A DNA stretch of 12,841 bases from an uncultured Lachnospiraceae bacterium (lineage in GTDB: Bacteria > Bacillota > Clostridia > Lachnospirales > Lachnospiraceae). Both the position numbers and the translations under genes were made by a program. Positions within the stretch are counted from its first letter, which is position 1; each line of letters begins with the position of its first letter. Shown here piece by piece: positions 3 through 12,841 of this stretch. The stretch is taken from positions 1-12,841 of the forward strand of contig CANTGP010000040.1 of assembly GCA_947653315.1 (NCBI GenBank), read 5' to 3'. The notes below the pieces were generated by a model. The model saw only the letters and a program-made list of their open reading frames with translations, was not told the origin of the DNA and did no database searches.

Positions 3-59
3 AATACCTATATTACGGGACAGCAGTTAGTAGTGGACGGAGGATTGACAATCGTATGA
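3..59 (+). CDS. Short-chain dehydrogenase/reductase, C-terminal end only (partial)
   Basis: The first bases encode the tail of a protein ending ITGQQLVVDGGLTIV and a TGA at 57-59. The ITGQ-x-L-x-VDGG pattern is the well-known C-terminal signature of classical short-chain dehydrogenases of the FabG type, which use NAD(P)H to interconvert a ketone and an alcohol. The catalytic Ser-Tyr-Lys and the cofactor loop lie upstream, outside the window, so substrate and exact length are unknown. The stop overlaps the start of the cyclase gene as ATGA (56-59), which indicates translational coupling. In this setting it probably reduces or oxidises a sugar or cyclitol precursor of the glycan, which is inference. 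A fatty-acid role is not supported by the neighbours. Confidence 0.8.
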   Translation, partial: NTYITGQQLVVDGGLTIV

Positions 60-1129
60 ACATCGCATCATATAAAGGGGCGTACCGGGCGGATTTTTAT
101 TCGGACTTTTCGTTTACCGCCGAAGTGGCGCAACAGAGCCATAAGTTTTTTATCATTGACAAGAAGGTGTTTGGAATATACAGGGAAACGTTGTCCAAAC
201 TGGTGGGCAGTGATTTGTATTATCTGTTGGATGCCGTGGAAGAAAATAAAAATGTGGATAAAGCCTTGGAAATCATGGATCAAATGGTAAATATGCCTTC
301 TAAGAGAAATACCGTTTTGGTCGCAATCGGCGGCGGTATCGTACAGGATGTGGCGGCTTTTATTGCAAACGTGCTTTACCGGGGGATTCCATGGATTTTG
401 GTTCCGACTACGCTGCTAGCGCAGACGGACAGTTGTATCGGAAGCAAATCTTCTTTAAATTTCAGGGGATATAAAAATTTGCTGGGATATTTTTACCCGC
501 CGGACCGGATTTATATTAATACGGAATTCCTCCATACGCTGGAGCGGAAAGACTATTTCAGCGGTTTGGGCGAAATCATGAAATGCGCGCTTATGGCCGG
601 TTACGGGAGTTTCCGTGAAACCGCCGGAAACATGGAGGATGTTTTGGCCCATAAGGAAGATGCCTTGTTAAAGGAAATCCATAAGGCATTGGAATTTAAG
701 AGAAACGTTATCGAACAGGATGAATTTGACAGGGATTACCGGAATATCATGAACTTCGGGCATACGTTCGGCCATGCCCTGGAAAGCGTTTCCGGTTATG
801 CGGTTCCCCACGGGCAGGCGGTTTCTTACGGAATGATGATTGCAAACAGGATTTCCTGCCAAAGAGGATATATTTCACGGGAAATGTTACAGGAAATCGA
901 TACGGCAATTTGGAACATTGTCATGCCGGAACTGGTGTGCCGTGATTTTTTTGCGGAAGCCCTTTATCTGAATGCGATGAAAAAGGATAAAAAATATACG
1001 GGAGGGCAGCATACCTGTATTTTGTTTGACGGGGACGGTGTGGGAAAATACACGGATATCCGGGATGGTGAAATCATGGATGCGGCAGGCCGGGTAATGG
1101 AGGAAGCAGGAAAAAGGCTGGGAAAGTAA
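56..1129 (+). CDS. 3-dehydroquinate synthase-family sugar-phosphate cyclase
   Basis: This 357-residue protein has the length and core motifs of the AroB-type cyclases, which use NAD+ and a metal to turn a sugar phosphate into a carbocycle. Visible are the NAD-binding GGGIVQD (92-98), PTT near 117-119, GE-x-x-K (E173, K176), H-T-F-G-H (236-240) and H252-G253. E173, H236 and H252 correspond to the metal ligands of dehydroquinate synthase, so it is probably active. The family also includes 2-deoxy-scyllo-inosose synthase and sedoheptulose 7-phosphate cyclases. No other shikimate gene is near, and the neighbours are glycan genes, so a dedicated cyclitol or unusual-sugar role seems likelier than aromatic amino-acid synthesis, but the substrate cannot be read from the sequence. 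The start overlaps the preceding stop as ATGA; a GGAGG at 39-43 lies rather far upstream (12 bases), consistent with coupled translation. Confidence 0.88.
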   Translation: MNIASYKGAYRADFYSDFSFTAEVAQQSHKFFIIDKKVFGIYRETLSKLVGSDLYYLLDAVEENKNVDKALEIMDQMVNMPSKRNTVLVAIGGGIVQDVAAFIANVLYRGIPWILVPTTLLAQTDSCIGSKSSLNFRGYKNLLGYFYPPDRIYINTEFLHTLERKDYFSGLGEIMKCALMAGYGSFRETAGNMEDVLAHKEDALLKEIHKALEFKRNVIEQDEFDRDYRNIMNFGHTFGHALESVSGYAVPHGQAVSYGMMIANRISCQRGYISREMLQEIDTAIWNIVMPELVCRDFFAEALYLNAMKKDKKYTGGQHTCILFDGDGVGKYTDIRDGEIMDAAGRVMEEAGKRLGK

Positions 1130-1158
1130 CAAGGAAAAAACAAGGCAGGGAATAAACA

Positions 1159-2142
1159 ATGTTAAAGTCGTACGAGTATACGGAGCAGTCCTATTCCGGG
1201 ATGCATTTGCAGGATTATCTGCTGAGGGATAAGGAAATCGATATTGCCAAAAGATTCAGCGAAAAATACGGGCACAGGGGGACATGGACGGAAAACTGCC
1301 CGGTTTGCGGCAGACATGCGGGAAAGTATTTCTTTACGAAATGGAAAGTGGATTATTTGTACTGTAAGGAATGCGCAAGCATATATGCATCCTGCGACCA
1401 CGGGTTGGTAAAGCGCTACCAAAAGGAAGAAGAACTGCTTGACTTAAGGAGAAGCAGCGTATTCCAGGAGGAAATTACCAAACGGAGGATGGAGCGGTGG
1501 AAGGAGTTTTTGGAGTGGATGCAGATACGTGCCTTCCGTTTCCTCGGACGAAACAAGGGGCTGGCAATTGCCGATATCGGAAACCGTTACCGTGATTACG
1601 TGAAACTCATACGGGAATCGGAACTTTGCGGCGCGTACCGGCTGGTGGATTCCATATTGGAGGGGATGGACGGTTTGGATACCGGAACGGAAAACATGGA
1701 AAAAGGGCAGGCGGATTTGGTTTTTTATTTTGACCGGATGCAGCAGGAAACGGCCCTTAAGGAAAGATTGTCCGGTATTTCCGAATGGCTGGGAAAGAGC
1801 GGGCTGCTGGTATTGGAGACGCGGGCAGGCAGCGGTTTTGACATATTGACGCTTAAGGAGCATAACCGGAAAATATATCCCTATGAACATGTCGTTCTGC
1901 CGTCCGTGCGCGGGTTGGTTCATCTGTTGGAAGAAAATAATTTCCGTGTCCTGGAAATCACGACACCCGGTGTCATGGATGTCCATTATGTGATGGAAGC
2001 AAAGAACCTGTTGGACGATTCCGGTTTGTTCGTGAAATTCCTGATGGAAGCGGATGATTCCGTATTACAGGAATTCCAGCGTTTTCTGCAAAAGAACGGT
2101 ATGAGTTCTTTTGTCAGGGTAATCGCGGCAAAGGAGAACTGA
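1159..2142 (+). CDS. Zinc-ribbon protein with a degenerate class I methyltransferase fold
   Basis: This 327-residue protein starts with about 45 residues of no clear identity, then a four-cysteine zinc ribbon (C47, C50, C69, C72), a charged linker, and a region resembling class I SAM-dependent methyltransferases of polysaccharide clusters. The late part, with SGFD near 225 and a TPG-x-x-D motif near 270, is the pattern remembered from that family. The expected SAM-binding loop D-x-G-x-G-x-G is replaced by DIGNRYRDY (139-147), so the glycine-rich turn is missing and catalysis is doubtful. It may have become a structural or regulatory partner, or it may be a divergent active enzyme. A CAGGGA ribosome site lies 7 bases before the ATG. 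It follows the cyclase by 29 bases and precedes the oxidoreductase by one base, so it belongs to the same operon. The family call is moderately sure; the function is unknown. Confidence 0.65.
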   Translation: MLKSYEYTEQSYSGMHLQDYLLRDKEIDIAKRFSEKYGHRGTWTENCPVCGRHAGKYFFTKWKVDYLYCKECASIYASCDHGLVKRYQKEEELLDLRRSSVFQEEITKRRMERWKEFLEWMQIRAFRFLGRNKGLAIADIGNRYRDYVKLIRESELCGAYRLVDSILEGMDGLDTGTENMEKGQADLVFYFDRMQQETALKERLSGISEWLGKSGLLVLETRAGSGFDILTLKEHNRKIYPYEHVVLPSVRGLVHLLEENNFRVLEITTPGVMDVHYVMEAKNLLDDSGLFVKFLMEADDSVLQEFQRFLQKNGMSSFVRVIAAKEN

Positions 2143-2143
2143 T

Positions 2144-3172
2144 ATGCAAAAAAAGATTCGTACGGTGATTATAGGAATGGGAAGGATGGGAAGGACGCGC
2201 TATGAGGCCATGCGCAGACATGGCGGATTTGAAATAACGGCGGTATGCGATTCCCGTATGTCCCTGTTGGAGCGCTACCCGGAACATGTATATACCGAAT
2301 GGAAAAGGTGTATTGACGGGGAACAGCCGCAGACAGTGGTGGTCTGCACCGTGAATGCGGTAATACCGGATATCGTGTGTTATGCGCTGGAAAGGGGATG
2401 CCATGTCTTTGCCGAAAAACCGCCGGGGAGATGTGCCGGGGATGCTTTGCGGATGAAAGCGTGCCTTGGGAAGAACGGGGGGCAGGTATTAAAATTCGGA
2501 TTTAACCACAGATACCACTATTCCATTATGGAGGCGAAATCATTAATCGATTCCGGTTTTTTGGGTGAAGTGGTGGCGGCAAGGGGAGTTTACGGAAAAG
2601 CGGCGGATTTAAACCGTCAGGAATGGCGCAACAATGTGGAACTTTCGGGCGGCGGAATCTTAATCGACCAGGGGATTCATATGCTGGACCTTTTAAGGTA
2701 CTTTGTGGGGGATTTTACGGATATCGACGGCTTTACCGATCATTTGGTCTGGAAAGAGAGCGTGGGGGAGGATACGGCTTTTGCGACGATGCGCACGGCG
2801 GACGGGAAAGTTGCGGTATTCCATTCCAGCGCAATCCAGTGGAAACACAAATTTGATTTGGACTTAATCTGCACCAATGGGTATATCGCGCTCAACGGCC
2901 TTTTGACATCCACGAAAAGTTATGGGGAGGAACGGATTACTTATTATAAAAAGGATTTGGAAAGAAAGAACGGAAAAATAGGAAACCCGAAAGAGTATAC
3001 GATGTGCTTTGACCAGGATGATTCCTGGAGTTATGAAATGGATGAATTTTACGGGGCGCTGACCGGGAAAGGCGGCATAAAAAACGGGACGGTGGACGAT
3101 GCGGTGGCGGTTATGAGGCTCATCGATACCATTTACGGAAAAAAGAACGGAATCGGGGCAGGAGTTGTATGA
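2144..3172 (+). CDS. Gfo/Idh/MocA-family NAD(P)-dependent oxidoreductase
   Basis: This 342-residue protein is of normal length for the family. The N-terminal Rossmann domain has GMGRMG at 11-16. The family's E-K-P motif is at 91-93, with K92 as the conserved lysine. GGGILIDQGIHMLDLL (from about 171) carries the D175 and H179 that usually sit at the substrate site. Such enzymes oxidise or reduce hydroxyl groups of sugars, nucleotide sugars or inositols, so an inositol- or amino-sugar-type substrate is possible but not shown. The ATG is set by AAGGAG at 2131-2136 with a 7-base spacer and lies one base after the upstream stop. The stop overlaps the next start as ATGA (3169-3172). It probably works with the cyclase and the upstream dehydrogenase in making a precursor, judging by position only. 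There is no sign of truncation. Confidence 0.9.
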   Translation: MQKKIRTVIIGMGRMGRTRYEAMRRHGGFEITAVCDSRMSLLERYPEHVYTEWKRCIDGEQPQTVVVCTVNAVIPDIVCYALERGCHVFAEKPPGRCAGDALRMKACLGKNGGQVLKFGFNHRYHYSIMEAKSLIDSGFLGEVVAARGVYGKAADLNRQEWRNNVELSGGGILIDQGIHMLDLLRYFVGDFTDIDGFTDHLVWKESVGEDTAFATMRTADGKVAVFHSSAIQWKHKFDLDLICTNGYIALNGLLTSTKSYGEERITYYKKDLERKNGKIGNPKEYTMCFDQDDSWSYEMDEFYGALTGKGGIKNGTVDDAVAVMRLIDTIYGKKNGIGAGVV

Positions 3173-5247
3173 AGGAGAAGCAGCATTCCATTGCGGTGTA
3201 CGGTTTGGGAAATTCCACAAAAGAAATCCTGAAGCGGGCAGGGAACCATGTGCATATCGTGGGGTTGCTGGACGGATACCGGACGGAGGGGGAGATGTAC
3301 GGAATGCCCATTCTGTCCATGGAAGAACTTCCGGCAAGGAACGTTACCGCTGTTTTGGTGGCGGCAAGACCCGCTTCCAAAAGGATTATTGTAAACCGTA
3401 TTGCGGGATTTTGTAAGGCGCACGGGATTAAAATCATTGATGCGGAGGGGAACGAATTGTCCGTCCGGGCGGCAGGAAGTCCCGTTTCTTTTACGGCAGG
3501 GACGGACCGGCGGGAGATCATGGATAAAATGGACGCCCATGAAGTGATTAGTTTTGATGTTTTTGAAACGCTTTTGATGCGCAGGACGCTGTATCCTTCC
3601 GATGTCTTTGAAATGGTAGAGAGGATGGGAATGACAAGGATGCCGTCTTTTGCGAAAGAAAGACAGGTCGCGGAATGGGAGCTTGGCAGGAAAGCGGCTC
3701 TTTTGGGACGGATTCCGGGATTGGATGAGATATACGGGTATTTGGCGGAAAAAAACGGCCTGACCGCTGCGGAAACGGAACGGTTAAAGAGGGCGGAACT
3801 GGAAGTGGAAAAACGGCTTGCGGAACCGAGGAGGGAAATATGCGGACTGCTGCGGTATGCCGTGGAACAGGGGAAAAAGGTGTACCTGGTATCCGATATG
3901 TACCTGTCCGCGGAACAAATCGGGGAACTGTTGAAAAAATGCGGGATTACGGGATATGAAAAAATATTGGTCTCCTGTGAATGCGGGACGGGAAAGGAAG
4001 GGGCGCTTTTTTCGTTTTTGCGCGAAGAAGTGGGAACGGCGTCCGTGCTGCATCTCGGCGACAGCAAAGAAGCGGATGCGGAAGCGCCCGCCCGGTACGG
4101 GATGGACGGAATCCTGCTCCCAAATGCGCTTGATTTATTTGAAAAGAGCGGGCTTTCAGGGAAACTGGACAGACAGGATACGCTGGAGGAGAGGGTAAAG
4201 CTGGGAATGTTTCTGGCAAGGTTTTTTAACAGTCCTTTTCTGTCGGATACGGGGCGCAGGGCGGTGCGGGAGCCGGAGGATTTGGGTTATCTGCTCTTTG
4301 CGTCGATGCTTACGGATTTTACGGTTTGGCTTTGGCAGAGGGTGAAGGAAAGCGGGGAGAAAACCGTTCTGTTCGGGGCGAGGGACGGCTTTCTCATCCG
4401 CCAGATGTTTGACGTGCTGCAGGAAAAGGCCGGACATGCGGCGGAGGGCCTTTATTTCTTAACGTCAAGAACCAGTGCGGTGTTTGCCGGAATCCGTAAG
4501 GAAGAAGATGTGGATGATGCAGTGGGCATGGGTTTTGGCGGTTCCCGTAAGGAAATGCTCCGGACGAGGTTTTTACTGACGGAGGAAGAAATGGAAAAGT
4601 GCGGGGGAGAAGCGGCAAAAGAGAAGTCACTGATTTTGGAAAAAGCGGATGAAAAAAGGATGAATTACCTGACTTATGTCAGGAAACTGGGATTGGAAAA
4701 GGGGAAAAAGGCATTTTTTGATTTCGTGTCCACGGGGACATGTCAGCTCGCATTGGAAAAGCTGTTTGGGGAGAAGATGCAGGGATATTATTTTATGCGG
4801 CTCATGGAAGCGGGAAGCGGAGGGGAAAAGAAGCAACTGCGGATTCACGGATTTTACCCTTCCCCGTCAAGGGAAAAGCCGGAAGGAATTTACGGGGACT
4901 ACTTAATCCTGGAAAACATCCTGACTTCCCCGGACCCGTCTTTGCAGGAATTTGACAGGGACGGCAGACCGGTATACCTGCCGGAGCACAGGTCAGAGGG
5001 GGAACTTTCTTTTTTGGGGAAAGTCCATGCGGGAATTCTGTCGTATTTCCGGGAGTATTTGGATTTGTGGGAAAGCGGGGCGGCAGGGAGGACGTTTGCC
5101 TGGGAAGGACTGACGGGGAGCAGGGAACTGTCGGAGATGATGCTTGGATTGGTGCATGGGATTCCGGTGGAAAATGAGGTTTTCCTTGGAATGGAATGGA
5201 CGGATTCTTTTTATGGGAGGAAAGCGGGTATCCGGGAGTTGCTTTGA
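3169..5247 (+). CDS. Rossmann-module/HAD-superfamily protein of glycan clusters
   Basis: This 692-residue protein has three parts. Residues 8-97 form a Rossmann-like module (G-L-G at 12-14, Asp35 turn, hydrophobic strand near 61-66). Residues about 125-315 are a HAD domain: motif I SFDVFETLL with D130, motif II VSDMYLS with S242, motif III K276, and motif IV GDS with D298 and D303. The two residues after D130 are V and F, so the acid/base Asp typical of HAD phosphatases is absent; haloacid dehalogenases and phosphonatases also lack it. Residues about 340-692 contain an ARDGFL motif and TSRTSA, as in the large HAD proteins (COG5610-like, from memory) found in polysaccharide loci, whose reaction is unknown to me. 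The start overlaps the previous stop (ATGA) behind AGGAG with a 4-base spacer. It is probably cytoplasmic; no signal peptide or membrane segment was seen. The HAD call is firm, the role uncertain. Confidence 0.85.
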   Translation: MKEKQHSIAVYGLGNSTKEILKRAGNHVHIVGLLDGYRTEGEMYGMPILSMEELPARNVTAVLVAARPASKRIIVNRIAGFCKAHGIKIIDAEGNELSVRAAGSPVSFTAGTDRREIMDKMDAHEVISFDVFETLLMRRTLYPSDVFEMVERMGMTRMPSFAKERQVAEWELGRKAALLGRIPGLDEIYGYLAEKNGLTAAETERLKRAELEVEKRLAEPRREICGLLRYAVEQGKKVYLVSDMYLSAEQIGELLKKCGITGYEKILVSCECGTGKEGALFSFLREEVGTASVLHLGDSKEADAEAPARYGMDGILLPNALDLFEKSGLSGKLDRQDTLEERVKLGMFLARFFNSPFLSDTGRRAVREPEDLGYLLFASMLTDFTVWLWQRVKESGEKTVLFGARDGFLIRQMFDVLQEKAGHAAEGLYFLTSRTSAVFAGIRKEEDVDDAVGMGFGGSRKEMLRTRFLLTEEEMEKCGGEAAKEKSLILEKADEKRMNYLTYVRKLGLEKGKKAFFDFVSTGTCQLALEKLFGEKMQGYYFMRLMEAGSGGEKKQLRIHGFYPSPSREKPEGIYGDYLILENILTSPDPSLQEFDRDGRPVYLPEHRSEGELSFLGKVHAGILSYFREYLDLWESGAAGRTFAWEGLTGSRELSEMMLGLVHGIPVENEVFLGMEWTDSFYGRKAGIRELL

Positions 5248-5259
5248 GCACGGCGGAAA

Positions 5260-5265
5260 GGAAGG
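5260..5265 (+). promoter_or_regulatory. Ribosome binding site that bears on the KPHP-gene start
   Basis: GGAAGG lies 14 bases before ATG 5280 and 8 bases before an in-frame GTG at 5274. The spacing fits the GTG better, whereas ATG is the commoner start codon. A TTG at 5244, behind GGGAG at 5234-5238 and overlapping the previous stop, is a third option. The three differ by at most 12 residues and do not change the domain content. Confidence 0.45.
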
Positions 5266-5279
5266 CGGTGATTGTGCGG

Positions 5280-6872
5280 ATGGAATGGACAGGAAAAGAA
5301 CTGGCGGTATGGGGAAGCGGGAACATCGGTATGCAGGTCATGAATGCCGGAAGGGAAATAAGTCCTGTGTATTTTATCGATAACGATGCGCAAAAATGCG
5401 GCAAGACGCTGTGCGGCAGGAAAATCATCCATCCGTCCCAAATATCCGACTGGCAGGGGATTTTTGTCCTTGTGGCCCTGGACCATTATGCACCGGTAAG
5501 GAAGCAGTTGATGCAGGCCGGTTTAAAGGAAGGCGAGGATTTTCTTTGGTACAGGGAGTGGCTCTTTGAAAAGAAAGAGGAGGAACTTTTGGAGGAAGAA
5601 GAACGGTTTCTGCAAAACGTAAGGGAAACGGAGCATTATATGGGAAGCAAACTGATTTTTTCGGATTTTCTTGCGTTTGATAAGGGTGTCTGTGATTTTG
5701 TAAACCGTTGGAAGGCGCGGGAACCGAATCTTGTCCTGTGTTCGGAAGCCGGGTGGCTTAGCGGAACTGCGGCAAGGGAAAAGCTGGAGATTCCCGTGGT
5801 GGAGCTGCCGGATCTTTTGTCGCATAACCAATACCTGAAAAAGAATGACGCCGGGACCGGAAATAGGGAAAAAGAGGAATACGTGCAATCCAAAACGTAT
5901 TTGTCGGAAGCGGCATTGAACCTGCGGCTTGGGTACCCGGATATGGCGGAAAAATATGAGTATACCGTATGCTTTTGTGCGGACCGGGTTATCAGGGAAA
6001 TCATCCGCTGTTGGAAGCCTTCCCAAATAATTTTATGGAATGCCTTTTATGCGTTCCATTTTATCATCCGGCATATCTGCATGGAAAAAGGCGTTTCCGT
6101 CAGGTATATGGAGTTTGGCAATATTCCGGGAACCATTGTGGTAGAGGGGACCGGGCAGATGGGGGAAAGTTACCCGGCAAGGTATCCGCAGGAATTTTTG
6201 GAACTGCCGGTATCGGAGGGGGAGTACGCGGGGGCGGAACGTCTGATCCGGGATTTAAGAATCCAAAGACTGAACCGGAACGTACAGCCCCGCAATGACT
6301 TGCAGGCAGCGGTAAGGGGAAAAATGGCGGAGGGAAAACCGGTTATTTTTTATGCGGGGCAGAATGATAATGCGTCCGGAATGCAGCCTTATACGGAAAA
6401 TACAAGGAAATTCCATTCGCCTGTTTTTACAAGCAGTGATGAAGCAGCCGTGTATTTGGCACGGTTATGCAGGGAGATGGGCTGGAACTTTATTTACAAA
6501 CCGCATCCCATGATGGCAGCGTGGTGCTGTATCGGTACACTGCCCGGAAATGCGGCCGTTGTGGACCAAGTGGATATTAATGATTTAATTGATTTTTCGG
6601 ATGTAGTGGTGACGGTTCTTTCTACGGTAAGCTATATTGCCCTGATCCGGGAAAAACCCGTGGTAATGCTGGGTTATACGCAGCTTAAGGGGAAAGGGTG
6701 TACGTATGAGGCGTTTCGGGAAGAAATCATTGGGGAGCAAATCCGGAATGCCTTGGAGAACGGAGCCAAAGACTTATGGAAACGGAAACACCATTTTGCC
6801 GTACATACCGCGCAGATGCAGAAATATTACGGGAATCCGTATAGGCAGGGGGAGAGCGCGGAGTTGGGATAA
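5280..6872 (+). CDS. Rossmann-module/GT-B capsule-polysaccharide-type transferase (KPHP)
   Basis: Taken from ATG 5280 the protein is 530 residues. Residues 6-97 are the Rossmann-like module: G12-S-G14, the DNDA turn at 34-37, and a second hydrophobic strand near 60-66. A glutamate-rich helix follows. The C-terminal half resembles capsule polysaccharide proteins of the KpsC/KpsS and CDP-glycerol transferase type. It has FIYKPHP (H409), a strand of V residues leading to LSTVSY (447-452) and EKPVVMLG (458-465), the usual nucleotide-sugar-side motifs of GT-B folds. It is probably a cytoplasmic glycosyl or glycerol-phosphate transferase; donor and acceptor are unknown. The start is uncertain. An ATG at 5196 lies 52 bases inside the upstream gene without a good ribosome site. 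TTG 5244 overlaps the upstream stop (TTGA) behind GGGAG, and GTG 5274 sits 8 bases after GGAAGG. I chose 5280 because ATG is favoured and the module begins there. Confidence 0.72.
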   Translation: MEWTGKELAVWGSGNIGMQVMNAGREISPVYFIDNDAQKCGKTLCGRKIIHPSQISDWQGIFVLVALDHYAPVRKQLMQAGLKEGEDFLWYREWLFEKKEEELLEEEERFLQNVRETEHYMGSKLIFSDFLAFDKGVCDFVNRWKAREPNLVLCSEAGWLSGTAAREKLEIPVVELPDLLSHNQYLKKNDAGTGNREKEEYVQSKTYLSEAALNLRLGYPDMAEKYEYTVCFCADRVIREIIRCWKPSQIILWNAFYAFHFIIRHICMEKGVSVRYMEFGNIPGTIVVEGTGQMGESYPARYPQEFLELPVSEGEYAGAERLIRDLRIQRLNRNVQPRNDLQAAVRGKMAEGKPVIFYAGQNDNASGMQPYTENTRKFHSPVFTSSDEAAVYLARLCREMGWNFIYKPHPMMAAWCCIGTLPGNAAVVDQVDINDLIDFSDVVVTVLSTVSYIALIREKPVVMLGYTQLKGKGCTYEAFREEIIGEQIRNALENGAKDLWKRKHHFAVHTAQMQKYYGNPYRQGESAELG

Positions 6873-6873
6873 G

Positions 6874-6878
6874 AGGAG
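6874..6878 (+). promoter_or_regulatory. Ribosome binding site deciding the GT4-gene start
   Basis: AGGAG is 8 bases before ATG 6887 and 5 bases before the adjacent in-frame GTG 6884, which favours the ATG. The site lies just after the upstream TAA (6870-6872), so the gene has its own ribosome entry. Confidence 0.6.
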
Positions 6879-6886
6879 CGGATGTG

Positions 6887-8557
6887 ATGGGGAAACTAAA
6901 GGTTGCAGTTTTGGGAAAAATGCCGAGGAAAGGGTATTCCGGAGGGCGGTATTGTGCGTGGATGATGGCGGAGGCGCTGGCGCACGAGGGAAATGAGGTC
7001 TATGTCGTTACGAATTTCCTTCCGGAATTCCATAAGGATTTTGAAATTTATCCGCGCCATAAAAACATACGGACGGTATTGGTCAGGGATTTTGTCCGTA
7101 TTCCGCTTGATGAGGAACGGTTGGATTATGTGATATGCATACCGGCGATTGACAGCAGGGAGGGTTTTTATTACGCATGCCGTGCCTTTGCCCTTGCGAA
7201 AAAGGCACGGTTTGCCTTTATTAATTTTGAAACGCCGAACTGGTATCGGGAATATACGGAAATGGACCGTCCGGTCCGGGACTATTATGCGCTTAGGAAG
7301 ATTTGCAGGTACGGTTGTTTGGTTTTAAGCATTTCCAAGGAGGGACAGCGGTATGCGGAAGCATTTTATGACGCTTTTGCGCAGTCCACGGTTCACGTTG
7401 CATGGTCTCCGCCGATGAATTCCATGGTTGCGGATTCCGTAAAAGAAGAAAAAAGAAACCAGGTTTTAGTGTTTTTGCGGATTCAGGACAAGCATAAGGG
7501 CGGGGATGATTTTTTGGAGCTTTTGGGGGAATATATGCGCGGCATGGAGTGCGTATGTGTCGTGGGAAACGGCACGGTGGATGAGGAATTCCAAAAAGAA
7601 GCGGAAGAAAGGGCGCAGCAGTATGGAATTTCCCTGCGGTTTGAAAAATGTATTAACGATTACCGGAAATTCCAGGAAATAAAACGTGCAAAGCTCCTGT
7701 TGTACCCTTCCCATTTTGAGGGATACGGTTATCCGCCGGTGGAGTCCCTGTACTGCGGTACACCTTGTATTGTTTATGATTTGCCGGTATTGCGGGAAGT
7801 ATCAGGGGATGCGCTGATCTATTGCGAAAACGGCGACATTGCCGGAATGAGGGAAAAAGCGGAGGGACTGCTGCGGTTAAAGGAAACCGCGTACCGTCCG
7901 GTTTGTGTGGATACCGCGGAGTTTGCGGGACAGTCGGAAAGGCTGCAGCGTCTTTTGGAGGAACATCTTTCCGACGAAAGGCTTATGGCGGATGTGGGCA
8001 TGATGGCACGCAGCCGTATTTTCGCAAAAAAATACGGGTATGCGGTTTATGGTTTGTGTATGAAAATACGCGGGTGGATTGTTACGGAAGTGATAAGGGT
8101 TCCTAAAATCATCCAATACTGCATTGACCATGAAACCGTGATTTCCAAACGGTTGGATATCCGCAGGGAGCGGTGGAGACTGGTTAAAAGACAGTTGGAG
8201 CATAAGAAAATATATATATGGGGATGCGGAAAAGCCTATTATGCTATTTTTCCCAAATACAAAAGGCGGATTATCCCAACCGGTATTTTGGATGGAAACC
8301 CGGAAAAAACCGGAACCGCCGACGGGATTATGGGAAATTTGACGGTACAGTCCCCAAATGTTTTGGAGCGGATGGAGCCGGAAGAAATTGCCGTATTGAT
8401 TTCCAACAAAGAGGGCGTGGATGAAATCATCGGGCAGTTGGAAAATATGGGGATTCGGAATTACCATTCGTTATGTATGGTGGAGTTAAATGCATGCAGC
8501 AGTAAAGGATACCGGATGATGAAATTTTTTCGTGAAATAGGGCGAAAGAAAAGCTGA
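6887..8557 (+). CDS. GT4-family glycosyltransferase with C-terminal Rossmann module
   Basis: This 556-residue protein has a GT-B glycosyltransferase body followed by an added domain. The early loop GYSGGRY (16-22) matches the N-terminal glycine loop of GT4 enzymes. The donor-binding EX7E motif is present as E278-GYGYPPV-E286, followed by GTPCIVYDLPVLREV, typical for retaining transferases of family GT4. Residues about 441-530 carry the Rossmann-like module (G446-C-G448, Asp469 turn in LDGNPEKTG), here at the C-terminus, linked by a basic helical stretch. It probably transfers a sugar from a nucleotide donor in the cytoplasm; the sugar is unknown. A GTG at 6884 in the same frame could also start it, but AGGAG at 6874-6878 lies 8 bases from ATG 6887 and 5 from the GTG, so ATG is preferred. 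It follows the KPHP gene by 14 bases. Confidence 0.88.
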   Translation: MGKLKVAVLGKMPRKGYSGGRYCAWMMAEALAHEGNEVYVVTNFLPEFHKDFEIYPRHKNIRTVLVRDFVRIPLDEERLDYVICIPAIDSREGFYYACRAFALAKKARFAFINFETPNWYREYTEMDRPVRDYYALRKICRYGCLVLSISKEGQRYAEAFYDAFAQSTVHVAWSPPMNSMVADSVKEEKRNQVLVFLRIQDKHKGGDDFLELLGEYMRGMECVCVVGNGTVDEEFQKEAEERAQQYGISLRFEKCINDYRKFQEIKRAKLLLYPSHFEGYGYPPVESLYCGTPCIVYDLPVLREVSGDALIYCENGDIAGMREKAEGLLRLKETAYRPVCVDTAEFAGQSERLQRLLEEHLSDERLMADVGMMARSRIFAKKYGYAVYGLCMKIRGWIVTEVIRVPKIIQYCIDHETVISKRLDIRRERWRLVKRQLEHKKIYIWGCGKAYYAIFPKYKRRIIPTGILDGNPEKTGTADGIMGNLTVQSPNVLERMEPEEIAVLISNKEGVDEIIGQLENMGIRNYHSLCMVELNACSSKGYRMMKFFREIGRKKS

Positions 8558-8579
8558 GGAAAGGCAGGAGGAAGCAGGG

Positions 8580-11075
8580 ATGAAACAGCCGTTAGTTACC
8601 ATTGTCATTCCCATATATAACGTGGAAAAATATCTTGGCGACTGCCTGGAAAGCGTAGTTGGGCAGACTTACGGGAATTTGGAAATCATCGGTATTGATG
8701 ACGGCTCTGCGGACGGCAGCCATGCCATATTGGAGCAGTATGCCAAAAGGGATGCGAGAATCCGGGCGGTAACGCAGGAAAACAGGGGATTGTCGGCAGC
8801 GAGGAACAGAGGGCTCGGAATGGCCTCCGGCGAGTATTGTTATTTTTTGGACAGCGATGACGAACTGTATGAAAATTCCGTGGAAACCATGGTGGAACAT
8901 ATGCGGAGGCATCGGTTGGACATTCTGTATTTTTCGGGGGATGTTAAATATCAGGAAGAAAAGTTTAAGAAGATTCTGCCGGGGGAAAACAGGATATGGG
9001 TCAGAAAGGATTTTTTGGATTGTGTGTATTCCGGCATGGAATATTTTGGAAAGGTATTCGGGAAGGAACTGTTTGCTTCACCGGTACAAATCCAGTGTTA
9101 CCGGACGGGGTATTTGCGTAAGAACCATATGTGGTTTACGGAAGAGTACATTCATGAAGACCTTTTTTTTACCTACCGGGCGGCATTGTATGCCGACAGG
9201 GTCATGGCAGTACGTGACGCATTGTATTTACGCAGAATACGGGAAGACTCCATTGTGACAAAGGCGGAAAGCGAAAAGAATTTTGAGGGAAGGTTTACCG
9301 CATTTTATGATATTTTGCTGTTAAACGGGACATATGAAAAGGAAATGGAGAAAGAAAGGGAAGGGAATGGAAAAAGGAAGAATCTTTTGCCGGATGCAGG
9401 GATGGAACGGTATTTGAAGGAAGCGTATGAAAATGCGGCAAGGGTTTACCGTCGGCTGGACAGCGGGATGAGGGAGAAAATAAAGTTTAAGGAGAGTACA
9501 AAAAATATGTTGTTTACGGAAATGAAGAAAAGGCTTGGAAACGGACCGGCGGTTCCGGGGTACGGAACACGGATGGAACAGAAGGAAAAAATCGTGCTGG
9601 TGGGGGCCGGAAAAACCGGACAGGCAGCGGCGGAGTATTTCGGGAAACACCGGGTGGCTTTTTTTGCGGATAACGATGCGGGCAAGTGGGGAAAGGAATT
9701 TTGCGGGACGGTGGTACGGCAGGTGGAAAGTCTGAAAGAGGCGGAGCGGGAATATGATTTTGTCATATGCTCCAACAGTGAGACGGAAATCGCAGAACAA
9801 TTATGGGATATGGGAATTTCCCGTTTTTACGGCTTTAAACGGGGGTCCGTTTATGAATTGGAGCAATTCCTGACGGCCCATCATGCAGGAAACTATAAAA
9901 GTATGGCGTTGTATGGAACGGGAAGGGATGCGGCAAGGATTTACAACGATTTGGCCTGCATGGATATAATCAGGCCGGATTATGTCGTGGACCGGGACGA
10001 CAGTCCGCTCATTGGACAGGAGTGGAACGGATATAGCGTAAAACGGTTGGAAGATATCATCGGAAAGGCGGATTGTATTCTTATTGCGTCAAACCGTTAC
10101 CATATGGCAATTGCCGCCCGTCTGATGCGGCAGGAGAATGCGGCATGGGATGTTTTGGATCCGTTCCTGCTGCAAAGCTATAACAAAAAGAACCGGCTTG
10201 TGGTGAATCCGTATGAAGAAGTAAAGGGAATTGAAGCCTTAACGGAAGAAATCTACAATATGCGCAGCAGCAACAGGGAGATGGATTTTGACGCAATCGC
10301 CAAATATGTGGATGAAGTGGAACAAATGGAAAAAATTCCTTTGTTCGGGCATGTGGAAATCGAAACCATTAACCGTTGCAACGGAACCTGTTCTTTCTGT
10401 CCGGTGAACAGAAACGATGATCCGAGAAAGCTGCACCGGATGACGGATGAACTGTTCCAAAAAATCATTTTGGAATTGGAAGATTTGGATTATCAGGGAC
10501 GGATAGCCCCTTTTTCCAATAACGAGCCGTTTTTGGATGCCAAGATCATTGAGCGGACACAGTATATGCGCAGGCATCTGCCGAAGGCAAGGATTCATCT
10601 CTTTACGAACGGCACCATGCTGACGTTGGAAAAATATTTGGGGATCATCGATTCGTTGGACGAATTGATTATTGACAATTATAACCAGGAATTGGAAGTC
10701 ATTGAACCGGTGAAGGAAATTATGGAATACTGCCTGTCCCATCCGGCGTTAATCCCGAAAACGGATATTGTTTTAAGGAAAAAGGAGGAAATCCTTTCCA
10801 CGCGGGGAGGGGATGCCCCGAACCGGAAAGTAAAACAGACTTATTCCAAGGTCAGGTGTGCGCTGCCTTACCGGCAGTTCATTATCCGGCCGACAGGGGA
10901 GGTTAGTCTTTGCTGTAACGATCCTTTGGGGAAATGTACCTTGGGAAATGTGCAGGAAGAAAAAATAGTGGATATTTGGTATGGGGAGAAGTTCCGGCAG
11001 GTCAGGAAAGCCTTGCTGGAAGGGAGGGAGAATTTTCCCCACTGCAAGTATTGCGATACGTTTTACCTGAACTAA
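8580..11075 (+). CDS. GT2 glycosyltransferase, two Rossmann modules and radical SAM/twitch domain fusion
   Basis: This is one uninterrupted 831-codon frame with three kinds of domain. Residues 1 to about 300 are a GT2 (GT-A) glycosyltransferase: VIPIYN at 9-14, DDGSADGS at 40-47, RGLSAARNRG, and DSD at 91-93 for metal-nucleotide binding. Residues about 336-425 and 440-530 are two Rossmann-like modules (GAGKTG with DND at 364-366; GTGRD with D471). Residues about 590-831 are a radical SAM domain with C600-x3-C604-x2-C607 for the 4Fe-4S cluster, then C760, C778 and the pair C822-x2-C825 as a twitch/SPASM auxiliary cluster, with C779 and C786 also present. The radical SAM part is about the size of the butirosin dehydrogenase BtrN (from memory), so oxidation of a sugar or cyclitol is possible. 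The start follows AGGAGG (8566-8571) with an 8-base spacer. The reading frame stays open across all junctions, with no frameshift sign. Confidence 0.88.
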   Translation: MKQPLVTIVIPIYNVEKYLGDCLESVVGQTYGNLEIIGIDDGSADGSHAILEQYAKRDARIRAVTQENRGLSAARNRGLGMASGEYCYFLDSDDELYENSVETMVEHMRRHRLDILYFSGDVKYQEEKFKKILPGENRIWVRKDFLDCVYSGMEYFGKVFGKELFASPVQIQCYRTGYLRKNHMWFTEEYIHEDLFFTYRAALYADRVMAVRDALYLRRIREDSIVTKAESEKNFEGRFTAFYDILLLNGTYEKEMEKEREGNGKRKNLLPDAGMERYLKEAYENAARVYRRLDSGMREKIKFKESTKNMLFTEMKKRLGNGPAVPGYGTRMEQKEKIVLVGAGKTGQAAAEYFGKHRVAFFADNDAGKWGKEFCGTVVRQVESLKEAEREYDFVICSNSETEIAEQLWDMGISRFYGFKRGSVYELEQFLTAHHAGNYKSMALYGTGRDAARIYNDLACMDIIRPDYVVDRDDSPLIGQEWNGYSVKRLEDIIGKADCILIASNRYHMAIAARLMRQENAAWDVLDPFLLQSYNKKNRLVVNPYEEVKGIEALTEEIYNMRSSNREMDFDAIAKYVDEVEQMEKIPLFGHVEIETINRCNGTCSFCPVNRNDDPRKLHRMTDELFQKIILELEDLDYQGRIAPFSNNEPFLDAKIIERTQYMRRHLPKARIHLFTNGTMLTLEKYLGIIDSLDELIIDNYNQELEVIEPVKEIMEYCLSHPALIPKTDIVLRKKEEILSTRGGDAPNRKVKQTYSKVRCALPYRQFIIRPTGEVSLCCNDPLGKCTLGNVQEEKIVDIWYGEKFRQVRKALLEGRENFPHCKYCDTFYLN

Positions 11076-11112
11076 ATATAAGAAAATAAGAAAACGGTGT
11101 GGAGGAGACAGG

Positions 11113-12495
11113 ATGAAATATGTAATATTCGGCGCAGGAAAAATAGGAAGTTACGCTTACGGTTCTTTGGGGGCATGGCAGGTGGCATATTTTGCCGATT
11201 CCTATCATTACGGATACGAGATGTACGGGAAACGTGTGCGGTCTTTTCAGGAGATGGCGGATGATTACCGCTCATCACAGGATATGGTTGTCGTTATTGC
11301 CACAAGCCGGTATCAGGAAACCATGGCGGAACAACTGCGGAAAGCGGGAATCGAAAGGTATTTTATTTATGACGTATATATGGAGAGGGATCCGCTTGGC
11401 GCATATGATAAGGGGCTTCCGGTTTATTATCTTTACAGACAGCGGGTACAGATGACGTATGCGCAGATTTTGAGCGGTTATGACATAGCGGGATACAGGA
11501 AGATTGCGATATACGGGACCAATTATTATATTCACCATTTAATCTGTGCCATTATGAAACAGGCTCCCGGTGCGGAGATATCCATTGTGGAGGAAGGAAT
11601 CAGGGAGGGGCGTTATTTTGACCTGGGCTGCCGGCATATGGCTTTCCGGGAGGCAGTGGATTCCTGTGACTGCATGGTATTGAATGTCAGGACAGTGGAA
11701 GACGATATCCGGCACACCATCGGGCAGTGTTACAGGGAAAAATTCCGGATTGTCGATATGTTTCAAATAGAACATTTGGAAAAACGTTTTTTTCATCCGG
11801 AACTGGAGCGGTATAAGGGAATTCATGAGGGAAAACGTATGTTTATTATCGGAAACGGACCGAGCCTGAATGTCAGGGATTTGGATACGTTACATAAGCA
11901 CCGTGAGCTGTGCATGGCGTTTAACAAAATATACCGGGTATATGATAAAACGGAGTGGAGGGCGGATTATATCGGAATGTCTGATCCCAATGTCATAGAA
12001 AACTACATGACGGATAATCCGGAGCTTCCGGGTGAGCTGTTTGTGTATGACAATTATCATAGGAAGGTGCAGAATCCATACCGGGAGGGAATCCCGTATA
12101 TCCATGGGATTATGGAAGCGTATTACCCGAATTACCCGCAGTTTTCCGATGATATTACCAAAGGATTTTTTTGGGGTTCCACGGTTACGTATGATATCGG
12201 GTTTCAGTTTGCGGCCTATATGGGGATAAAGGAAATCTATCTGATTGGCGTGGACCATAGTTATCAGGGACATCCGTCGGAAAAGGGGAATCATTTTATT
12301 GATGACTACATTACGGAGGAAGAAGCGTCCATGTATAAGAGTGCGGTTTTTGAGAAAGAGAAGCTGACAAAGGCTTATGAAAAAGCGGAGCTTTACTCCA
12401 GGCAGAACGGATTCCGGATTTATAACGCAACCAGGGGAGGAGAGCTGGAAGTCTTTGAACGGGTGGATTTTGACTGTTTGTTTCCGGAAACTTAG
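11113..12495 (+). CDS. Two-module DUF115/Maf-like protein (MptE-like glycan transferase)
   Basis: This 460-residue protein starts with a Rossmann-like module (G7-A-G9-K-I-G12). A second, degenerate one follows at about 129-225 (IYGTN at 133-137, third glycine lost). The C-terminal half (about 237-460) carries GNGPSL at 247-252, WGSTVTYD near 354-361 and IGVDHSYQG near 378-386, the pattern of the DUF115/MptE-like family. In flagellated bacteria relatives (Maf proteins) are needed to attach nonulosonic or other sugars to flagellin, and sialyltransferases of family GT42 share a similar early GNGPS loop. A role in putting a glycan on a protein or lipid acceptor is inference, and the acceptor is unknown. 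Translation starts after GGAGGAG (11101-11107) with a 5-base spacer, 37 bases past the upstream stop. Neither signal peptide nor membrane segment was seen. Confidence 0.82.
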   Translation: MKYVIFGAGKIGSYAYGSLGAWQVAYFADSYHYGYEMYGKRVRSFQEMADDYRSSQDMVVVIATSRYQETMAEQLRKAGIERYFIYDVYMERDPLGAYDKGLPVYYLYRQRVQMTYAQILSGYDIAGYRKIAIYGTNYYIHHLICAIMKQAPGAEISIVEEGIREGRYFDLGCRHMAFREAVDSCDCMVLNVRTVEDDIRHTIGQCYREKFRIVDMFQIEHLEKRFFHPELERYKGIHEGKRMFIIGNGPSLNVRDLDTLHKHRELCMAFNKIYRVYDKTEWRADYIGMSDPNVIENYMTDNPELPGELFVYDNYHRKVQNPYREGIPYIHGIMEAYYPNYPQFSDDITKGFFWGSTVTYDIGFQFAAYMGIKEIYLIGVDHSYQGHPSEKGNHFIDDYITEEEASMYKSAVFEKEKLTKAYEKAELYSRQNGFRIYNATRGGELEVFERVDFDCLFPET

Positions 12496-12508
12496 AATTT
12501 TCCGGAAA
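12481..12508 (+). repeat. Two TTTCCGGAAA palindromes forming a possible hairpin over the stop codon
   Basis: The 10-base palindrome TTTCCGGAAA occurs at 12481-12490 and again at 12499-12508. Because each copy is its own reverse complement, the two can pair as a perfect 10-base-pair stem with an 8-base loop, CTTAGAAT, that contains the TAG stop of the DUF115 gene (12493-12495). No run of T follows, so it does not look like a classical intrinsic terminator. It could act as an mRNA-stabilising or processing structure, or lower expression of the next gene; both are inference. Confidence 0.55.
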
Positions 12509-12566
12509 TCAGGGTTCAAAAAGGGAAACGGTGAAAAATAAATAGGAAAAAGAAGGGATACAGGGA

Positions 12567-12841
12567 ATGGGAAAATATGTAATATTCGGAGCGGCAAAAC
12601 AGGGAACGGAAGTTTATCATTTAGTGGAAAAATTGGAAGGAGTGGGTAACGTAGCGTTTTTTGTGGACAATGACGAAAACCGTTGGGGCACCAAAGAAGG
12701 CCTGGAGGTGATCGGGGCGGGGGAACTTGCAAAGCGGGATCCCGACAGGAAGTTTGCCGTGATTATTGCCAGCAGTTATTACGGGGAAATACAGAGGCAG
12801 TTGCTTGATTTGGGTTTTGCGGAGGAAAATATTTTATCGGG
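12567..12841 (+). CDS. Protein starting with the Rossmann module, 3' end outside window (partial)
   Basis: The first 91 codons of a gene that runs off the window. They encode MGKYVIFGAAKQGTEV, a DNDENRWG turn and an AVIIASSYY strand, which is a complete copy of the Rossmann-like module seen in the neighbours. The start resembles the DUF115 gene closely: 17 bases (AAATATGTAATATTCGG) are identical at 11116-11132 and 12573-12589. What follows the module is not visible; in this locus it could be a glycosyltransferase, radical SAM, DUF115 or methyltransferase domain. AAGGG at 12553-12557 lies 9 bases before the ATG. It is separated from the upstream stop by 71 bases, the longest gap in the window. 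Confidence 0.85.
   Translation, partial: MGKYVIFGAAKQGTEVYHLVEKLEGVGNVAFFVDNDENRWGTKEGLEVIGAGELAKRDPDRKFAVIIASSYYGEIQRQLLDLGFAEENILS

Follow-up and report, generated by a model that had tools for sequence, protein, structure and literature searches.

Small Rossmann-like domains of the nucleotide-binding type occur on several described proteins, and their ligands differ. In PglD-type acetyltransferases and KijD1-type C-methyltransferases such a domain anchors the nucleotide of the substrate at the active site, whereas in Rex a domain of this type binds nicotinamide adenine dinucleotide, NAD(H), and is joined to a winged-helix DNA-binding domain in a protein with a redox role. The membrane enzyme WbaP carries a CoA_binding_3-type domain that, in the excerpt of the study on which we draw, is stabilised by uridine mono-, di- and triphosphate (UMP, UDP and UTP); the same excerpt reports that UMP inhibits the enzyme (apparent half-maximal inhibitory concentration, IC50, 4.1 uM) and that dimerisation proceeds partly via the domain (PMC10942596). 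Here we describe copies of such a module in a stretch of DNA from an uncultured Lachnospiraceae bacterium (assembly GCA_947653315.1, 508 contigs). The window, that is, the whole stretch analysed, is the entire contig CANTGP010000040.1 (C40; 12,841 bases). Its last six genes, p4 to p9, are consecutive in the open reading frame (ORF) calls, all lie on the plus strand, and each contains at least one module. The repeats, M1 to M8, are copies of one small Rossmann-like module of about 80–95 residues, which belongs to the CoA_binding_3 / PglD_N / Rex-NAD / C2185-like_N superfamily. The fold itself is already known; its use as a domain common to many enzymes of one glycan locus, often near flagellin genes, did not come up in our searches of the open-access literature.

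A preliminary description of the window had counted about eight copies in six consecutive proteins, and this holds, seven being recovered at the coordinates given there with an external profile and M7 through its predicted fold alone. The profile consists of 118 modules from other contigs of the same genome and from genomes of the genus (E-values for a nominal 3000 proteins); its rows are independent of the window, but their collection, made with a window-seeded profile, is not. It finds M1, the N-terminal module of the HAD-type p4 (3190–3459, domain bounds 3190–3387, E 2.4e-6, with G-x-G and Asp kept), M2, at the N-terminus of the Capsule_synth/GT-B-type p5 (5295–5570, bounds 5304–5522, E 1.2e-13), M3, at the C-terminus of the glycosyltransferase (GT) p6 of the GT4 type (8207–8476, bounds 8207–8455, E 1.3e-11), and the tandem pair of p7, M4 (9585–9854, bounds 9588–9818, E 1e-15) and M5 (9897–10169, bounds 9906–10130, E 3.7e-8). 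The profile likewise finds M6, the N-terminal module of p8 (11113–11388, bounds 11116–11352, E 2.3e-13), and M8, at the N-terminus of p9 and truncated by the contig end (12567–12841, bounds 12573–12818, E 2.3e-16), all on the plus strand. Its background in the window is the Gfo/Idh protein p3 at E 0.003, and one of 1800 shuffled window proteins had a domain at E ≤ 0.01 (0.0035), so a chance likeness of unrelated Rossmann folds is ruled out for these seven segments.

The degenerate M7 (11497–11787, plus strand), between M6 and the DUF115 domain of p8, was not found by the profile among the window proteins. When the modules were compared pairwise, 13 of 28 pairs were matched by at most three of 300 shuffles, and none of the seven pairs with M7 was among them; the likeness is clear for M2, M4, M6 and M8, weak for M1, M3 and M5, and absent for M7. 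In the predicted model of p8, the eight strands and helices of M7 follow one another just as those of M6 do (predicted local distance difference test, pLDDT, 93.0; predicted template-modelling score, pTM, 0.90). With no sequence signal in either comparison, M7 as a recent copy is ruled out.

In profile and fold searches, the closest relatives of the modules are CoA_binding_3 (3nkl), the Rex NAD(H) domain, PglD-type N-domains, the WbaP regulatory domain and CAC2185. Rex and 3nkl are jointly the top profile matches, the Rex fold is matched, and the CoA_binding_3 type (3nkl, WbaP) is matched in both profile and fold. No window module exceeded a cut-off in the Pfam scan. The likeness to PglD-type N-domains that had been proposed for these segments is borne out by the fold but not by the gathering score of PglD_N (PF17836), for which M8 scores 13.9 bits against a cut-off of 23.4; among the remaining window proteins none is listed at E ≤ 1, and the genome has no match at E ≤ 0.001. 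Unlike in PglD-type enzymes, an acetyltransferase domain of the left-handed beta-helix (hexapeptide) type has no Pfam match in p4–p8. The fold of the CAC2185 N-domain (2g6t) is matched as well, but against C2185-like_N (PF22674) the window copies stay under the cut-off (M8, 16.1 of 27 bits; none over it in the genome); precomputed database domains place PF22674 on many p7 and p8 homologs. A functional account of C2185-like_N or CAC2185 was not found in the open-access literature. Rex differs in its winged-helix domain, which has no Pfam match in p4–p8, and the window modules stand in a glycan context; WbaP, the domain of which has a beta-hairpin dimer swap, differs in that its domain sits on one membrane enzyme, whereas here the module is on many enzymes per locus. 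Finally, p8 has PF01973 over the cut-off and a Maf fold, and its M7 and DUF115 domain align jointly to the Maf flagellin glycosyltransferase 5mu5, with which it shares a CstII-like catalytic fold. M7 is thus probably the N-domain of the Maf architecture. In contrast to Maf, p8 has the extra N-terminal M6, and the alignment stops at residue 511 of the 632-residue chain, at the end of p8.

The sequence pattern noted earlier, G-x-G followed by Asp about 25 residues on, is present in M1–M6 but needs amending for the others: M8 has G-x-A plus the Asp, and in M7 Asn takes the place of the second Gly and no Asp lines up. Its conservation was assessed in alignments of the p7 and p8 families (the window plus 69 and 65 rows, respectively, which we selected from 120 homologs listed for each). 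In M4, both Gly and the Asp are kept in 70/70 rows, and in M5 of the same rows the first Gly is at 97% and the second Gly position is usually Asp (73%). In M6 (66 rows), three Gly are at 97, 98 and 95% and the Asp at 80%; in M7, one Gly is at 98% and one Asn at 91%. In a diverse set of 50 modules of our choosing, every one has the first Gly, with 90% conservation at the second Gly and at the Asp, and over about 335 module rows the values are 98% (first Gly), 84% (second Gly) and 82% (Asp). By count, 271 of the 329 modules of the genus and named loci have both Gly, 269 have the Asp, and 218 have all three.

The fusion partners have no common chemistry but do share glycan loci. Stretches from the genus gave 123 module ORFs, and 56 of these, scanned against Pfam, matched 53 families (25 of the 53 listed, with details for 20 proteins). 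In relatives, the module is found on at least a dozen Pfam families of glycan enzymes, including GT2, GT4, a xylose-isomerase-like TIM barrel, FkbM, WbsX, RgpF, Caps_synth and CTP_transf_like, and also Gly_transf_sug, radical SAM, methyltransferases, DUF4422 and GDPD. Homologs of p7 mostly have two modules plus radical SAM/SPASM, with GT2 (PF00535) as well on nine of the 120 listed, among them the window's; one homolog, P0086, has GT4 domains in place of GT2. Homologs of p8 number 2222 at E ≤ 0.001. We note separately some recurring ORFs of 158–167 amino acids in which about 70 residues precede a module that lies in the second half (L062:12350-12823, L064:18972-19445, L070:10828-11328, L076:2707-3180); two such ORFs that were scanned, that of L062 and L059:11361-11855, have no catalytic domain over the cut-off. 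An ORF of 835 amino acids (L074:9519-12023) has a module near 250–320 and no Pfam match at E ≤ 0.01.

The module is placed consistently within a family. Among ten families sought with seeds (p7 counting under both GT2 and radical SAM), it follows the catalytic domain in GT2 (55/55), WbsX (8/8) and TIM (5/5), and precedes it in DUF115 (52/52), radical SAM (31/32), FkbM (13/13), Gly_transf_sug (9/9), HAD (3/3) and CTP transferase (4/4). Nine of the ten families therefore have one constant end (180/181 cases outside GT4), and only GT4 is mixed (4 before, 5 after; n = 9). In 154 of 191 cases the nearest module sits on the same partner family (37 on average and 59 at most after shuffling), and in 12 it is in the same locus (2.7 on average and 10 at most), just one of these 12 being on a different partner. 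Because the nearest module follows the partner enzyme, shuffling or homogenisation inside the locus is unsupported; M4 and M6 are alike already at the level of the p7- and p8-family consensus sequences. When the non-module parts were grouped by single linkage, 174 proteins were merged, probably via multidomain members, so the number of partner families was not taken from this clustering.

Module enzymes are concentrated in particular loci, and the better control for this is the contrast among GT2 genes within genomes. In the near-complete genus genomes G001, G002, G003 and G012, 36 of 45 module matches are in one locus per genome; the remaining nine comprise two on another G003 contig, four with the length of Rex and three weak ones. 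A module lies within 1.2 kb of 11 of the 14 GT2 matches in the module locus vs. 0 of 86 elsewhere (best 100 of 137 GT2 matches, one G009 row falling outside the 14 and 86). Left out of this control were the four frames of 221–249 amino acids taken as Rex and the three weak matches (E 1e-4 to 7e-4), a choice based on length and score and not on a domain scan; none of the seven is within 1.2 kb of a listed GT2. The second contrast uses loci of named genomes found with p8 (best 80 of 176; one has no DUF115 ORF). Neighbours carry the module in 145/714 cases in the 46 loci where the DUF115 gene has one vs. 11/462 in the 33 where it has none, and further module ORFs are present in 41/46 vs. 3/33 loci, a contrast confounded by taxon (see below). 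In the three exceptions, the DUF115 genes look split (L079, L086) or lie at a contig end (L096). Over all loci, module counts are spread less evenly than under a binomial model (chi2 240; simulated maximum 127.8). Comparing loci that have at least two other module ORFs (module-rich) with those that have none, the module is on 53/79 vs. 0/31 GT2, 8/10 vs. 1/17 Gly_transf_sug, 40/43 vs. 5/40 DUF115 and 6/30 vs. 1/30 GT4 enzymes. As side observations, the genus genome G014 has several module loci in one cell (46 profile matches on contigs C1, C12, C15, C19, C21, C26 and C95, most without a flagellin match), and in L094, an uncultured Treponema (a spirochaete by record name), the module is on 6/6 called ORFs of a 7.8 kb record.

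In many relatives these loci are close to flagellin-type genes (Flagellin_N matches, which include hook-associated proteins). Nine of 16 genus genomes were tested, and in six a module cluster is within 50 kb of such a gene; in the other three, one of them the window's, module clusters share no contig with such a gene, and in the window's genome the flagellin-type genes are on contigs other than the window. In a phylum sample, 12 of 149 genomes have modules at E ≤ 1e-10. Without the window's genome, 10 of the 11 have a module and a flagellin-type gene on one contig among the matches listed, 9 within 50 kb and 7 within 20 kb (a rough model expects 0.96); for G120 (no shared contig) and G160 (2.27 Mb), one of two flagellin matches each is among those listed. 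It should be noted that flagellin presence alone is uninformative, as a match is listed in 126/149 genomes of the sample and in 12/12 with modules. For 13 named genomes (contigs of G172 pooled, likewise those of G173), 5 of 16 rows are within 50 kb and 8 have a flagellin match on the contig, among the module matches listed. The flank of the G012 locus includes transferases, LicD, FliD, FliW, a flagellin-type gene and a FlgN-like protein just below the cut-off (10 of 19 ORFs scanned). A p8 match at E ≤ 1e-10 occurs in just 2 of the 16 genus genomes (G000 and G005), so p8 is no fixed part of the flagellin-linked loci there.

The explanation to which we lean, tentatively and at somewhat less than an even chance, is that the module is an accessory regulatory domain that binds a nucleotide and would put one glycan pathway under common control. 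The reading first proposed for the repeats, a common ligand or a docking role, is thereby supported in part. We infer the regulatory domain from the data on WbaP, whose domain is the most thoroughly studied relative that our searches turned up, from the conserved Gly and Asp, and from the spread of the module within loci; the fold and profile matches to nucleotide-binding domains also support it. Ancient fusions, mostly at a fixed end, would have joined the module to many unrelated glycan enzymes that co-occur in loci. Most copies would bind a nucleotide, which may be a product (UMP, UDP or cytidine monophosphate, CMP), a nucleotide sugar or NAD(H), with the Gly-turn and with the Asp that closes strand 2. 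Binding would exert a common feedback on the enzymes of the pathway, as UMP may do via the WbaP domain. In many relatives the controlled pathway would be the locus near flagellin genes, and degenerate tandem partners (M5 in its family, M7) may serve as pairing or structural halves. The constant module end fits, because intramolecular regulation would need it.

Several results weigh against this reading. The fixed end follows equally from one old fusion per family. Since all three motif residues are found in just 218 of the 329 modules, a third may not bind as proposed, and TIM barrel, FkbM and radical SAM enzymes, without an obvious nucleotide product, fit product feedback less well. The module is not required, given that 26/79 GT2 and 24/30 GT4 enzymes of module-rich loci lack it. 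As for the DUF115 contrast, Lachnospiraceae-type loci (labelled by us from record names) make up 31/46 vs. 2/33; outside them, module neighbours occur in 11/15 vs. 3/31 loci, and within these 33 loci the unevenness of module counts does not exceed chance (chi2 50.1; largest simulated 69.6). Four DUF115 relatives tested (L080, L082, L087 and L106, four of seven full-length ones at ≥41% identity) are not flagellin-linked, one being 597 kb from the nearest match and three on contigs without a match. Flagellin was dropped as a sure target of the window locus, given that its presence alone is uninformative and that p8 is no fixed part of the flagellin-linked loci in the genus.

Much of the same evidence could be read as docking, in which modules pair mutually or with a common partner (a scaffold, flagellin or its chaperone) and hold cytoplasmic glycan enzymes together. 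The clustering in loci, the tandem pairs in p7 and p8, the reported part of the WbaP domain in dimerisation, and ORFs with little beyond the module (12/325, some possibly clipped by stretch ends) would all suit it. We nonetheless consider it rather unlikely: within a locus, modules on different partners resemble one another no more than they do once locus labels are shuffled (mean score 45.1 vs. 45.6 ± 1.1), and conservation peaks at the nucleotide-binding turn and Asp (alignment positions, not surface patches). The idea of a free-swinging tether is weakened by the module end being fixed by family except in GT4. A grip on the nucleotide part of the substrate in the enzyme's own active site is suggested by PerB, VioB, WeeI and KijD1, which are among the best fold matches, and by the end fixed in nine of ten families with one exception, but GT2, GT4 and DUF115-type domains normally bind the nucleotide donor themselves, the GT4 module is found on either side, and module-free GT2 and DUF115 relatives are present in the same data, which makes such an anchor improbable.

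Still less probable is NAD(H) redox sensing as in Rex, by which glycan assembly would track the NADH/NAD+ ratio, as the matches to PglD-type, succinyl-CoA synthetase and WbaP domains, whose ligands differ, are comparable to those to Rex. The slimmest chance goes to old fusions kept by descent, without a common function, and clustered as genes travel in islands. The nearest module's adherence to its partner family would be expected from this; the conservation of Gly and Asp across very divergent copies and the same-genome contrast of GT2 with and without the module argue against it.

The genes of the window all lie on the plus strand. Upstream, p1–p3 (56–3172) have no module and encode an AroB-like cyclising phospholyase (TIGR04425, over the cut-off), a methyltransferase-like protein (weak match) and the Gfo/Idh oxidoreductase, a possible supply of a cyclitol or unusual sugar. 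Next, p4 (3169–5247) comprises M1, a HAD-like region (HAD-IA 21.7 bits, just below the 23.3 cut-off) and a C-terminal remainder, and p5 (5196–6872), the ORF of which overlaps p4 and may really start further in, has M2 and a Capsule_synth-type transferase over the cut-off. They are followed by p6 (6884–8557; GT4, with Glycos_transf_1 over the cut-off, then M3) and p7 (8580–11075), which by Pfam matches has GT2, M4, M5 and radical SAM/SPASM in one chain. The DUF115/MptE-like domain of p8 (11113–12495), preceded by M6 and M7, has the Maf- and CstII-like fold and makes p8 a candidate nonulosonate transferase; p9 (12567–12841) begins with M8 and is open at the contig end. Elsewhere, a Cas12f1-like_TNB (TnpB-type) gene (L080:1137-2468) adjoins a Schaedlerella nonulosonate-type cluster.

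It is possible, if on balance doubtful, that the module acts as a "pathway tag": one nucleotide-responsive domain on a dozen or more unrelated enzymes would mark islands of cytoplasmic protein glycosylation, with flagellin as the foremost target, in scattered lineages of the phylum. It would switch or assemble the set together and leave alone those untagged members of the same families that, in the same cell, serve other surface polymers. Shared accessory domains have so far been known for single glycan enzymes. If one domain is indeed common to the transferases, methyltransferases, radical SAM enzymes, TIM-barrel protein and cytidylyltransferases of the same loci, the pathway would be controlled or assembled through one type of contact. 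This would offer a handle on how cells separate pathways that draw on the same sugars, and the module may mark which glycan enzymes form a set; in many relatives these would be the ones near flagellin genes.
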